Source: Cryomorpha ignava
GTDB taxonomy: Bacteria; Bacteroidota; Bacteroidia; Flavobacteriales_D; Cryomorphaceae
Assembly: GCF_010686655.1 (NCBI RefSeq)
Contig: NZ_JAAGVY010000006.1
Coordinates: 62,001 to 126,000 of the forward strand
Direction: 5' to 3'
DNA: 64,000 bases
Below, piece by piece: positions 5,520 through 63,671 of the stretch. Every line of letters starts with the position of its first letter. Within the stretch, counting starts at the first letter, position 1. Both the position numbers and the translations under genes were made by a program. The notes under the pieces were generated by a model. That model made no database searches, was not told the DNA's origin, and saw only the letters and a list, made by a program, of their open reading frames with translations.

Positions 5520-7481
<1,962 letters not shown>

Positions 7482-7511
7482 TTACTAAGTTGTGTAGAAA
7501 TTTTATTCCCA

Positions 7512-7519
7512 CAAAAATA
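7512..7519 (-). promoter_or_regulatory. TAnnTTTG promoter box of gyrB
   Basis: Minus-strand TATTTTTG matches the Bacteroidota -7 consensus TAnnTTTG and sits 34 bases before the gyrB ATG. Confidence 0.55.
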
Positions 7520-7550
7520 CAAAATTTAAACATTAAAATCACCTCAAAAG

Positions 7551-7586
7551 CCGCATAAACACTATAATTGTCAACAATTTATGTGG
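7551..7586. promoter_or_regulatory. Compound inverted repeat upstream of the gyrB promoter
   Basis: Two nested dyads share a centre: AATTGT/ACAATT around CA at 7566-7579, and outer arms CCGCATA (7551-7557) and TATGTGG (7580-7586), which pair with one G-T wobble. It lies about 32 bases upstream of the putative gyrB -7 box. It could be an operator, a cruciform or part of the repeat-rich spacer; no regulator is known from the sequence. Confidence 0.35.
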
Positions 7587-7689
7587 TTTATTAACAGTTG
7601 TGGTGAAAGCATGTTTTTGACGTGTTAAAATTGGGGTTTGACGGGTGGAATTACAACTTGAGGTATGCGAAATTGACGCGAGCAAAATT

Positions 7690-7773
7690 AGGCCGCGCGA
7701 GGTAGGCTGCGTGAGGTGGGCCGTGTGAGGTAGGCCGTGTGAGGTAGGACGCGCGAGGTAGGCCGCGCGATGA
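7690..7773. repeat. GC-rich 14-bp tandem repeat, six units
   Basis: Six consecutive 14-base units of the form AGGCCGCGCGAGGT start at 7690, 7704, 7718, 7732, 7746 and 7760. Most differ by one to three bases, mainly C/T exchanges; the last diverges after base 11. The array is far richer in G+C than its surroundings and codes for no plausible protein. It directly abuts the next array. Confidence 0.85.
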
Positions 7774-7849
7774 ATCGACGCGGATACAATCGACGCGGGT
7801 TCAGTCGACGCGGGTTCAGTCGACGCGGATTCAAATTAACGCAAGCTCA
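7774..7849. repeat. 15-bp tandem repeat, four good units and one decayed unit
   Basis: Units of the form GTCGACGCGGGTTCA begin at 7774, 7789, 7804 and 7819, followed by a decayed 16-base unit from 7834. The core GACGCG also appears just before the first array (near 7675). The array ends four bases from the stop codon of the minus-strand beta-barrel gene. Confidence 0.85.
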
Positions 7850-7853
7850 GTCT

Positions 7854-9617
7854 CTAAAATGCAAATTTCAACCCACCTAATAGAAAAACGCGCTGTACTG
7901 GGAAGCGGTAATACTGGTCGTACTTCGTTCCGGTTAAGTTGTTAGCTTCAATAAAGGCCGAGATTCGATTTGAATAGCGGTACTCTGCTTTCAATGTTAG
8001 GTCAAAATAAGGATCAAGCTCTACCTTATAAAATCCTTCGGGTTCGATTTGAACATCTGAAACCGGACGAAGTGATTTTGCATAACGCTTACCGACCAAA
8101 GCCATTTCTGCTCCTATACTCAGCTTTTCAAAAAGCGTGTAAGATCCCAGTAGCGAGAATCTGTATTTTGGCATATGCCATGCCTCTTGTTCATCATTTG
8201 CACTATAGGTAAATATTTCGCCACGGGCAGTAGCCGACCATTTTTCGCTGTTTTTATATGAAAGCTCACCCATCATAGAAAAGGTTTGAACCTGATCATA
8301 GATAACCAAAAACCGATTCTCTTCACTTACCAGTGTATCGTTAACAAAAAGTGGTGTTTCATCTACTTTTTTGTATCCAATACGGGTATTAAAACTCATT
8401 TTATCGCTTAGCGTTCCGCGAATACCTCCAAAAAGATCATACTTTACAATAGAGTTAATTAATGGTTTATCGTCTGTACCATAGTGCGAAAGATTTGACA
8501 AAATGAAAGGGTTTTCCCGCGAAAGCGTTTTATAACTATTTCGTTCTACGCTTCCCGTTACGCCAGCATAAGGGATAAAAATATCATTAAAAAGCGAATA
8601 AGAAACCTCCAGATCAGGAAAGGCATGAAACCGCGCTTTACTGTCAAATTGCCCATAAACTGCTAACCCGGCCATAGCTCGAAATCCATTTTTAACAAGA
8701 AGGATGCGTGGTGTTGCGTGGAAAATTACGTTGGTATAATCATTCGCCGGGATAAAAATTCCAGACGAATCGCTCATAAAATCAAATGCTTTTAAGTCGC
8801 CGGTATTGTAGCCGACAAAATCTAATCCACCATCGAGGGTATAATATTGATCGCCTCTCCATGAGCGCAATTGTGTGGTGGCCTTTACACCAATTTCATT
8901 GGCATCGTAACTATCAGAATAGTAATAGGAATCTAAACCGATATTGTGATTGATGCGCGAAGAATCGCGGTAGTAGCTCCTATAATCTGCACTAAGCGAA
9001 AAATCATTAAACCGCTGGCGCATATCTTTTTTATCAATTTCGGCATCTTGCGGGTCGAAACCGTAATAGTGATAACCGTTTAACGCATAACCCAAATCTG
9101 TTTGGAGACTGTGTTGCTTAAAGATTTTTTTACCCCATAAGTCCACATTAGTTTCGCTAAAACCGCTAAACGCTACCGGCTGGTTTACTCCATCATGTGA
9201 AGATAAGTGGCGCGCGTGAACTCCATAAGATTTGTCTCTATCACGATTGCTGGTATAAAAAGCCTCCACATAGGGAGTGGCAAATGTTCCGGCTCCAGCC
9301 TTTACAAATCCATGGTACAACTTTTCGAGTGGTTCGCGAATTTTAACGGTTGCCGGCTCAATAGGTTCGGGTGTTATTTCGGTTGCAGGGCGTTTAGGAA
9401 TCATTTCGTAAGTCAAGGTTCCCATTTGTACCGGAATATCTACTACAGTGGGCATTTCAGAAATTTTAAACGCCTTTTGTACTGTTAACGTCCTGTCGCC
9501 CGTAATTATCTGGGTTTGATCAAAGGCATCGCCTTCGCCGCCCTGCGCCGATGCAGCAAAGGAGCTGACAAGAACGACGCTGAATACTAGGAATGATTTT
9601 ATAGTTGCGTATTTCAT
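7854..9617 (-). CDS. Outer-membrane beta-barrel protein (TonB-receptor-like barrel without plug)
   Basis: A 587-residue protein with a signal peptide (about 1-24, ending AASAQ). Most of its length alternates aromatic and polar residues as in transmembrane beta strands, with many Tyr/Phe-ending strands, and it finishes in an aromatic residue (GLKFAF), as outer-membrane barrels do. There is no recognisable plug domain or TonB box, so calling it a TonB-dependent receptor would be too strong. The start lies 11 bases downstream of the TPR gene's stop on the same strand, so the pair is probably an operon whose two products act together at the outer membrane. Substrate unknown. Confidence 0.75.
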   Translation of the reverse strand: MKYATIKSFLVFSVVLVSSFAASAQGGEGDAFDQTQIITGDRTLTVQKAFKISEMPTVVDIPVQMGTLTYEMIPKRPATEITPEPIEPATVKIREPLEKLYHGFVKAGAGTFATPYVEAFYTSNRDRDKSYGVHARHLSSHDGVNQPVAFSGFSETNVDLWGKKIFKQHSLQTDLGYALNGYHYYGFDPQDAEIDKKDMRQRFNDFSLSADYRSYYRDSSRINHNIGLDSYYYSDSYDANEIGVKATTQLRSWRGDQYYTLDGGLDFVGYNTGDLKAFDFMSDSSGIFIPANDYTNVIFHATPRILLVKNGFRAMAGLAVYGQFDSKARFHAFPDLEVSYSLFNDIFIPYAGVTGSVERNSYKTLSRENPFILSNLSHYGTDDKPLINSIVKYDLFGGIRGTLSDKMSFNTRIGYKKVDETPLFVNDTLVSEENRFLVIYDQVQTFSMMGELSYKNSEKWSATARGEIFTYSANDEQEAWHMPKYRFSLLGSYTLFEKLSIGAEMALVGKRYAKSLRPVSDVQIEPEGFYKVELDPYFDLTLKAEYRYSNRISAFIEANNLTGTKYDQYYRFPVQRVFLLGGLKFAF

Positions 9618-16974: not shown

Positions 16975-17004
16975 AGTCGCGCGTCTCGAGTCGCTTGTCT
17001 CGAG
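16975..17004. repeat. 14-bp tandem duplication after murB
   Basis: AGTCGCGCGTCTCG (16975-16988) is followed at once by AGTCGCTTGTCTCG (16989-17002) and the first two bases of a third unit, starting 16 bases after the murB stop. Unit length and CG-rich composition recall the arrays upstream of gyrB, though the sequence differs. The rest of the 197-base spacer shows no gene. Confidence 0.6.
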
Positions 17005-46758: not shown

Positions 46759-46853
46759 ATATGAGTAGCCCCCATCGATTTATCGCGGGGTTAATTTTCA
46801 GTTATTGGTTCGAGAAGTTCATGGATATGAGTAGCCCCGCGATAAATCGCGGG
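46759..46853. repeat. Two copies of a palindromic ATATGAGTAGCCCC element
   Basis: ATATGAGTAGCCCC occurs at 46759-46772 and 46825-46838 in the same orientation, each followed by a hairpin-forming tail. In the second copy CCCGCGAT (46836-46843) pairs with ATCGCGGG (46846-46853); in the first the same hairpin is degenerate (CCCCC...ATCGATTTATCGCGGGG). There is no T run, so it is not a standard terminator. Confidence 0.7.
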
Positions 46854-46875
46854 TGTACGTCTCATTAACAATTCG

Positions 46876-61812: not shown

Positions 61813-63671
61813 TACGTTTTGCCTTCATATTTTCTTTTTTTATTCTGTGTGGACAGGTTGATGTGCAAGCGCAGCAGGGCACTACTGATGAGCAGCTTGC
61901 AGGCTACTATCTGGATACAGGAGAATACCAAAAGGCTCTGCTTTATTATGAAAAGCTCTATGGAGAGAATCCCAAGGCGAGCAATTATGAAGGGCTGCTA
62001 ACTTGCTATACCAAGCTTGAAAATTACAAAGAAGCTGAAAAACTGGTCAAAAAACAGCTTAAAAAATTCAGTTCCAACACCTATTATATTGATTTGGGTA
62101 CTATTTATGAGGCCCAGGGAAAAGAATCGGATGCCAACAGCGCTTATAGAGATGCCATAACCAATCTTCCTGAAAGCCAAGGACTGGTAATAAGAACTGC
62201 CAATGAATTTATAAGAAGAAACAAACTTGATCTTGCTTTAGAAACTTATCAATACGGTAAAAAAATCCTTGCCGGCAGGTATCCGTTTAGCTACGAAATA
62301 GCCGGCTTATACGGAAGCATGGGCGACACCCAGAAAATGATAAGCGAGTATCTTGATCTGATAGAATTTAATGAGGCCTATCTTCAAACGGTTCAAAATG
62401 CCCTGGGTAGAAGTATTGATTTTGAGAGCAGCACAGAAAATGTAGACCTTCTGCGCAATGAATTGCTAAGAAGGGTTCAAAAAGATCCGGCATCGACCAC
62501 TTATGGCGAAATGCTGACGTGGCTATTTCTCCAACAGCGCGATTTCAATTCGGCTTTTGTACAGCTTAAAGCTATTGATAAAAGGCTGAATGAAGACGGA
62601 GCAAGAATTTTGAATCTGGCAAATTTATGTACCAACAATCAGGAGTACAATGTAGCCGAGAAATGCTATAATTATTTGATTGAAAAAGGGGCTGCAAATA
62701 AATATTACAATTACGCCAGAGCCGGTGTGCTTAAATCGAGATTTGAGAAACTGCGCACTGTATATCCACCCGATACAATGGCGCTAAAAACATTGCGAAA
62801 AGATTACACTTCTACTCTCAATGAGTTGGGCAGCGTTTACGAAACGGTAGGTATGCTTCGTCAGAAAGCCCAACTTGAAGCGTATTATCTTGATAATTTG
62901 GAAGGTGCTAATGTTACGCTTAATGAAGCTTTAGACACTCCAGCGCTATACCCTGAAGTTGCAGCAGAGATTAAACTCGAACTGGCGCGGATACTTATAG
63001 CCCGCGATTATATTTGGGATGCATCACTTCTAAGCTCACAGGTTGATAAAGATTTCAAAAACGACATGCTGGGCTATGAAGCCAAATTATTGAATGCAAA
63101 GATTAGCTACTACACCGGCGATTTTGACTGGGCGCAGGCGCAGTTGGACATTCTTAAAGGCTCCACTTCAAAATTGATAAGCAACGATGCCATGGAGCTC
63201 TCACTGCTCATTACTGACAATATGAACATGGATACGATTTACGAACCCATGATACTGTTTGCCAATGCAGATCTTCTCACTGTTCAACATAAGTTTCCGG
63301 AGGCAATTGTCATTTTAGACAGCATTTTAACAACTTGGCCGGGTCATGCACTTACCGACGAAATATTGCTCCAACGCGCAAAAATAGCTGAAGAAAAATA
63401 CGATTACGAAGAGGCTATCACCTTCTACCAAAGGATTATAATTGAATATTATTTTGGAATAAGTGCCGACAATGCCTTATTCAGAATGGCCGATCTTTAT
63501 GAAAACAAACTCAAAGACCCCGAAAAAGCACAGGAATATTACAAGCAGCTCATGGTCGATTTTCCCGGCAGTCTTTATGTTGTAGAAGCCCGAAAACGAT
63601 TTAGAGCCATTCGCGGCGACGCGCCCAATCAGGAAATCCGTGAAATAACGCCGGATAGTAAGGTTAATTAG
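61809..63671 (+). CDS. Exported tetratricopeptide-repeat protein
   Basis: A 620-residue protein starting at TTG, which overlaps the preceding stop as TTGA. Signal peptide about 1-21 (CGQVDVQAQ). TPR units follow, such as AGYYLDTGEYQKALLYYEKLY at 30-50 and PEKAQEYYKQLMVDFPGSLYVVEARKRF near the C-terminus, with helical-repeat spacing throughout. Similar exported TPR proteins in Bacteroidota scaffold envelope assemblies; the exact role is unknown. Translational coupling with the lipoprotein gene suggests that the two products work together. Confidence 0.83.
   Translation: MIRFAFIFSFFILCGQVDVQAQQGTTDEQLAGYYLDTGEYQKALLYYEKLYGENPKASNYEGLLTCYTKLENYKEAEKLVKKQLKKFSSNTYYIDLGTIYEAQGKESDANSAYRDAITNLPESQGLVIRTANEFIRRNKLDLALETYQYGKKILAGRYPFSYEIAGLYGSMGDTQKMISEYLDLIEFNEAYLQTVQNALGRSIDFESSTENVDLLRNELLRRVQKDPASTTYGEMLTWLFLQQRDFNSAFVQLKAIDKRLNEDGARILNLANLCTNNQEYNVAEKCYNYLIEKGAANKYYNYARAGVLKSRFEKLRTVYPPDTMALKTLRKDYTSTLNELGSVYETVGMLRQKAQLEAYYLDNLEGANVTLNEALDTPALYPEVAAEIKLELARILIARDYIWDASLLSSQVDKDFKNDMLGYEAKLLNAKISYYTGDFDWAQAQLDILKGSTSKLISNDAMELSLLITDNMNMDTIYEPMILFANADLLTVQHKFPEAIVILDSILTTWPGHALTDEILLQRAKIAEEKYDYEEAITFYQRIIIEYYFGISADNALFRMADLYENKLKDPEKAQEYYKQLMVDFPGSLYVVEARKRFRAIRGDAPNQEIREITPDSKVN

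Follow-up and report, generated by a model that had tools for sequence, protein, structure and literature searches.

The GC-rich repeats between gyrB and its upstream neighbor in Cryomorpha ignava stem from both arms of a single REP palindrome, each arm being iterated on its own side of one hairpin core. We consider it very likely that one lineage-specific, RAYT-associated REP of the GTAG type landed between a conserved gene and gyrB, after which each of its halves was multiplied separately. The element lies in a stretch of 64,000 nucleotides that was analyzed as a whole (positions 62,001 to 126,000 of contig NZ_JAAGVY010000006.1; here, the window).

The array sits between two minus-strand genes, one at 7854-9617 and gyrB at 5520-7478, the identity of the latter having been confirmed. 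The original prediction of two abutting tandem arrays at this place was borne out by TRF, which found one of period 14 at 7689-7767 (5.6 copies, score 109) and, abutting it, one of period 15 at 7773-7834 (4.1 copies, score 89), against a best score of 76 in 40 shuffled windows. Also as predicted, the arrays are richer in GC (71% for the 14-base and 58% for the 15-base array) than their flanks (32% and 42%) or the window (41%), no ORF of at least 60 aa runs across them in the ORF list of the window, and only a few bases separate the end of the decayed 15-mer unit from the stop codon of the gene at 7854-9617. Variation among the left units is mainly C to T on the plus strand, all at CpG, and among the right units mainly A/G. 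The predicted count of six 14-mers and four 15-mers stands for the unit types, but a single hairpin is formed by the sixth 14-mer (7760-7772) together with the first 15-mer (7773-7787), one half each; likewise, the repeats do abut, but as the arms of one REP palindrome that belongs to a dispersed, RAYT-linked family. Read on the minus strand, the array runs (GAATCCGCGTCGACT)(GAACCCGCGTCGACT)(GAACCCGCGTCGATT)(GTATCCGCGTCGATT)-(CATCGCGCGGC CTA)(CCTCGCGCGTC CTA)(CCTCACACGGC CTA) and continues in this manner; the 15-mers copy the 5' half of the REP and the 14-mers its 3' half (Table 1). A CRISPR array was ruled out, the units standing head to tail with no unique spacers. Elsewhere in the window, a 14-bp repeat, AGTCGCGCGTCTCG, occurs 2.1 times at 16975-17004.

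Table 1. REP-derived features of the window, with the evidence for each
Feature	Position	Strand	Evidence
REP hairpin core: foot GTAT, 5' arm with bulged T CCGCGTCGATT, 3' arm CATCGCGCGG	7763..7787	-	0-mismatch match to GTAKCCNCGTCGATTYATCGCGNGG
Three extra REP 5'-half copies (foot + 5' arm, 15 bp: GAACCCGCGTCGATT, GAACCCGCGTCGACT, GAATCCGCGTCGACT)	7788..7832	-	TRF; match to REP p=0.007 vs shuffles
Decayed extra 5'-half copy GAGCTTGCGTTAATTT	7833..7848	-	sequence inspection
Five REP 3'-half copies (CTCGCGCGGC + CTAC, 14 bp) besides the REP's own	7690..7759	-	TRF; match to REP p=0.010 vs shuffles
Possible decayed remnant CTCGCGTCAATTTCGC, weak	7663..7689	-	sequence inspection
Second member of the REP family within the window, GTAGCCCCCATCGATTTATCGCGGGG	46765..46790	+	pattern census and sequence
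Neighboring REP GTAGCCCCGCGATAAATCGCGGGT, without bulge	46831..46854	+	pattern census and sequence

The junction of the two arrays (7763-7787, minus strand, 25 nt) reads GTATCCGCGTCGATTCATCGCGCGG and matches without a mismatch a degenerate REP pattern, GTAKCCNCGTCGATTYATCGCGNGG, which comprises hairpin and foot and was used for a census at up to 3 mismatches, with a control pattern run alongside. The pattern has 30 matches in this genome, the control pattern 0, and the seven other genomes of the family hold no match to the REP pattern. Its core hairpin is CCGCG(T)CGAT..ATCG CGCGG, with the T bulged, and the foot is GTAG in 12 and GTAT in 5 of 20 distinct aligned copies. Most copies thus resemble GTAG-tagged REPs, whereas the window copy has GTAT, a point against the main reading. 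Across these 20 copies 90.6% of the stem cells are paired, with 9 double-change cells and a covariation of 0.166 against 0.076 when shuffled; none of 500 shuffles reached either the covariation or the double-change count, and sliding the partners abolished the signal. Covariation resides mainly in the third pair (7/23), which is U-A in 9 copies, C-G in 6 and G-C in 2. The family is multicopy, dispersed and mostly extragenic: 20 of the 22 loci sampled lie outside ORFs, and the intergenic copies with both neighbors resolved all adjoin the 3' end of at least one gene. At 46765-46854 of the window, an intergenic pair of REPs shares one orientation, with a spacing of about 40 bp. The feature beside gyrB holds a single core (7763-7787) and is therefore not a REPIN or BIME, in which two inverted REPs form the unit (an inverted pair does occur at C2:231022/231053), nor is it a tandem of whole REPs, each of its units being one half only. 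The window copy carries the rare G-C version of pair 7/23, and both arrays carry the same version, which indicates that they grew in place from this REP rather than through insertion of other copies. The predicted scenario of local expansion in tandem and subsequent point decay is supported.

Half-REP arrays are not confined to the window. A genome-wide scan for the arrays, which the original prediction had suggested, returned partial matches at two other loci. The same two-sided layout as in the window occurs at C29:40245 (L003/L198), where (AGTATCCCCGTCGAT)x3 is followed by (CATCGCGGGGCTGAA)x3. One-sided arrays are present twice on contig C4, on C65 and, with a second REP family, on C13: at C4:127601 three 15-bp 5' halves lie in frame inside a DnaE-like ORF (L002:1175-3049), at C4:126908 a REP is followed by 3' halves (18 bp x10.8), and at C65:15149 3' halves of 19 bp run off the contig end. 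The DnaE-like ORF also contains an 18-bp x3 repeat, GAGACGCAAAGCATTGCG, that is itself REP-like. Around 24 REP loci, free 5' halves number 12, whereas shuffles average 1.3 and never exceed 5; free 3' halves number 20, with a shuffled average of 5.6 and a maximum of 12. These are concentrated in a handful of the loci, most family copies having no array; since half-copies occur at 9 of the 24 loci, and shuffles give 5.0 such loci on average and up to 10, the excess lies in the copies per locus and not in the number of loci. The clearest 5'-half loci (the window, C29 and C4:127601, plus a single extra copy at C5) have GTAT feet instead of GTAG. Whole-REP tandems are also present, at C34 (38 bp x6) and C72 (101 bp x3). 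An exact scan of the contigs of other genomes for the 15-mer array gave 117 stretches, mostly in GC-rich genomes, which we take as chance; no REP core was present in the four that were inspected or, by the core pattern, in the rest.

The window's REP family flanks a cognate RAYT gene on C4: four copies, including two that have the bulged T, are found on both sides of the gene at distances of up to about 0.8 kb, and the 10.8-copy 3'-half array stands directly 5' of it. The encoded protein matches the REP_Tyr_transpos model at 2e-9 (score 37.5, curated cut-off 80) and Y1_Tnp with a score of 17.6 (cut-off 23), and sequence inspection finds an HUH motif, DHMH, and a YIRDNP motif; because both scores fall below the curated cut-offs, it appears to be a divergent member. 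Its paralogue on C13, 36% identical, is accompanied by a different REP stem, GTAGAGACGTTGCATGCAACGTCT, and by a 3'-half array (23 bp x7.3) in the same position and orientation relative to the RAYT as on C4, and the layout therefore recurs with unrelated sequence. Another candidate RAYT locus, L034 (G000 C11:31538-31879), was rejected as an IS200-type transposase gene; it sits among tandem units of about 400 bp, each with the hairpins GTAGCCACGGG(T/C)TTTA(A/G)CCCGTGG and GTAGCCTTGGGCTTTAGCCCAAGG.

Association of REPs with tandem arrays extends to RAYT loci of other genomes. Two sets of RAYT homologues were gathered, the first from the order (including the loci of this genome) and the second from the phylum, and a REP was scored as touching an array when the two lay within 10 nt, by criteria fixed before the second set was collected. 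Arrays are touched by 20 of 31 RAYT-locus REPs in the first set (1.3 expected at random positions) and by 10 of 34 in the second (0.75 expected), while control loci around the neighbor of gyrB gave one weak REP-like match and zero array adjacency. By nominal per-array p-values, 7 of the 20 arrays of the first set share REP-arm sequence, as do, again by nominal p, 6 of the 10 of the second, where 3 of the 6 are whole-REP repeats at one locus. In the other 13 of 20 first-set arrays the similarity test detected no REP-arm sequence, and we rejected the notion that every array near a RAYT-locus REP is a half-REP array. Clear half arrays outside this genome are those at L252, L254, L257, L259, L282 and L288. 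Many arrays of the first set are contained in the RAYT ORF and have periods that are multiples of three, consistent with the in-frame REP insertions and the short repeats of subclass 2.4 described in PMC6006769. At L239, L244, L245, L246, L255 and L261, the REP palindrome reaches 7-12 bp past its GTAG feet and into the adjoining array units, which looks like an inverted copying of one arm of the array.

The history of the site bears on whether the array serves gyrB. The gene at 7854-9617 neighbors gyrB in each of the seven other family genomes compared, none of the same genus, at spacings of 146-214 bp (584 bp in one); here the gap is 375 bp. The array is absent from this conserved junction in all seven, which is what the suggested comparison of unit number in relatives came to. 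A block near gyrB (window ~7480-7600) is kept in all of them and includes CAAAnnTA, or TAnnTTTG on the gene strand, which we take to be the -7 box of Bacteroidota promoters. The same block contains the words TAAACACT, TCAACA and TTAACA, as well as TTNTCAACA/TTATTAACA-like words that resemble weak DnaA boxes. Because the relatives keep the junction and the promoter block without the array, the REP most likely arrived after the lineages split, outside the gyrB promoter.

An alternative, which we regard as unlikely, is a functional RNA, a 3'-end stabilizer or attenuator between the upstream gene and gyrB that was selected for its stacked hairpin. The array lies just past a stop codon, is GC-rich and folds to -55 (sense) or -71 kcal/mol, and the adjacency of intergenic family copies to gene 3' ends would suit such a role. 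Yet this folding is not above that of dinucleotide shuffles (z -1.38 and -0.68), the C-to-T decay on the plus strand would weaken the sense-strand helix, and the seven relatives lack the array. With the folds of both strands and of the DNA no better than shuffles, we rejected an evolved RNA structure; no Rfam match was found within the window. The predicted mRNA 3'-end structure or tuning role accordingly did not hold up: neither the folding, nor the seven-relative comparison, nor the intact gyrB promoter region gave evidence of tuning, and a dedicated gyrB switch is unlikely, since the relatives keep junction and promoter without the array and the folding equals that of shuffles. The array may have a mild effect on the upstream mRNA at its 3' end, because intergenic copies adjoin gene 3' ends, as has been reported for REPs in general.

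Protein binding by the arrays is plausible by analogy, because REPs are RAYT substrates. A platform selected for this purpose, with half-sites that bind RAYT, or gyrase, IHF or Pol I as proposed for REPs and BIMEs of E. coli, seems quite improbable to us. It would agree with the binding of single-stranded REP hairpins by TnpA-REP in vitro (PMC8266576) and with the half arrays directly 5' of two RAYT genes, but half-sites alone form no hairpin unless they pair across the arms, and the majority of family copies have no array.

Two ordinary minisatellites of separate slippage origin that abut by accident are very improbable. The genome is rich in unrelated arrays, such as those of the heptamer TATTGRG, which has 212 matches and forms many dispersed arrays, and the unit variation resembles ordinary decay. 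Against this, the junction fits a dispersed REP family without a mismatch (30 matches versus 0 for the control), the units are the two halves of its hairpin and share its covarying pair, and the same two-sided layout is found at C29; we therefore rejected independent minisatellites. Arrays of (TATTGRG)n lie, among other places, at G000 C3:187097-187394, C54:20661-20875, C65:15031-15133 and C81:5157-5329, and short TATTGRG stretches stand directly 5' of several REP feet (C65, C12, C13, C34, C72). An assembly artifact can be practically dismissed: though the assembly is a draft of 149 contigs, of which C65 and C72 end inside REP arrays, a collapse is unlikely at the window array because it is short (145 bp), has divergent units and lies well inside a 158-kb contig.

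We propose that the single REP beside gyrB was amplified as follows. A RAYT of the C4 type would have spread the REP by acting on single-stranded hairpin DNA; RAYTs are thought to spread REPs by cleaving and joining single-stranded REP DNA at CT sites 5' or 3' of the hairpin, and the GTAG foot takes part in site choice (PMC8266576). The 5' half (15 bp, foot and arm) would then have grown outward from one side of the core and the 3' half (14 bp, arm and complementary foot) from the opposite side, yielding a quasi-palindromic mirror array that now appears to be decaying by point mutation. The halves may have multiplied by strand slippage at the hairpin, perhaps aided by RAYT nicking: the half-unit boundaries coincide with the foot and the hairpin apex, as expected of slippage or template switching at a hairpin, and RAYT cleavage would agree with these positions as well. 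The abundance of TATTGRG arrays shows that tandem expansion is not restricted to REPs; it favors plain slippage, and a RAYT need not act. A bolder version, to which we give little credence, is that half-REP amplification is active, RAYT-driven REP multiplication, in which cleavage at the foot and near the loop with repeated rejoining of one arm would produce mirror arrays around one core and feed variable linker repeats into RAYT genes. The element in the window is probably selfish and close to neutral in its 3'-UTR position.

REPs, RAYTs, double-foot REPs inside RAYT genes and tandem whole REPs are already known. The GTAG families (Di Nocera 2013, PMC3733652; Nunvar 2010, PMC2817692) resemble the present one in their tetranucleotide foot, palindrome of about 20 nt and covarying stem, and in being dispersed, mostly downstream of genes, and adjoining RAYT genes. 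In contrast, the portion of PMC3733652 concerned lists them for Proteobacteria, Cyanobacteria, Chloroflexi and PVC, and its clusters consist of whole REPs or dimers in tandem rather than of single halves. TnpA-REP/RAYT subclasses 2.4 and 2.7 likewise have long or double-foot GT[AG]G/C[TC]AC REPs flanking or inside tnpA-REP genes, and subclass 2.4 occurs in Bacteroidetes, with short repeats in the variable domain of its genes; however, the sections of that paper used here (PMC6006769) do not identify these repeats as REP halves or describe half arrays outside the gene. Tandem clusters near RAYT genes in P. fluorescens SBW25, interpreted as a second route of cluster formation (Bertels and Rainey 2011, PMC3116915), have as their unit a whole REPIN or a REP with flanks, whereas here the units are 14-23 bp with one arm, even if tandems of the SBW25 type occur in this genome too (C34, C72). 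Bacterial minisatellites and VNTRs share the short head-to-tail units with point decay, but here the unit derives from a palindromic mobile-type element and is mirrored around its core. Iterated REP halves were not described in the main texts covered by the literature search, and arrays of one REP half mirrored around the core are apparently new. They connect REP elements, and the domesticated transposases that go with them, to a puzzling group of GC-rich minisatellites in bacteria, and caution that a pair of arrays taken for two minisatellites may represent both arms of a single mobile-type hairpin. A REP core with counted half-copies is also a recurring natural substrate on which to ask what builds REP clusters, RAYTs or plain slippage, a point that earlier work left open.
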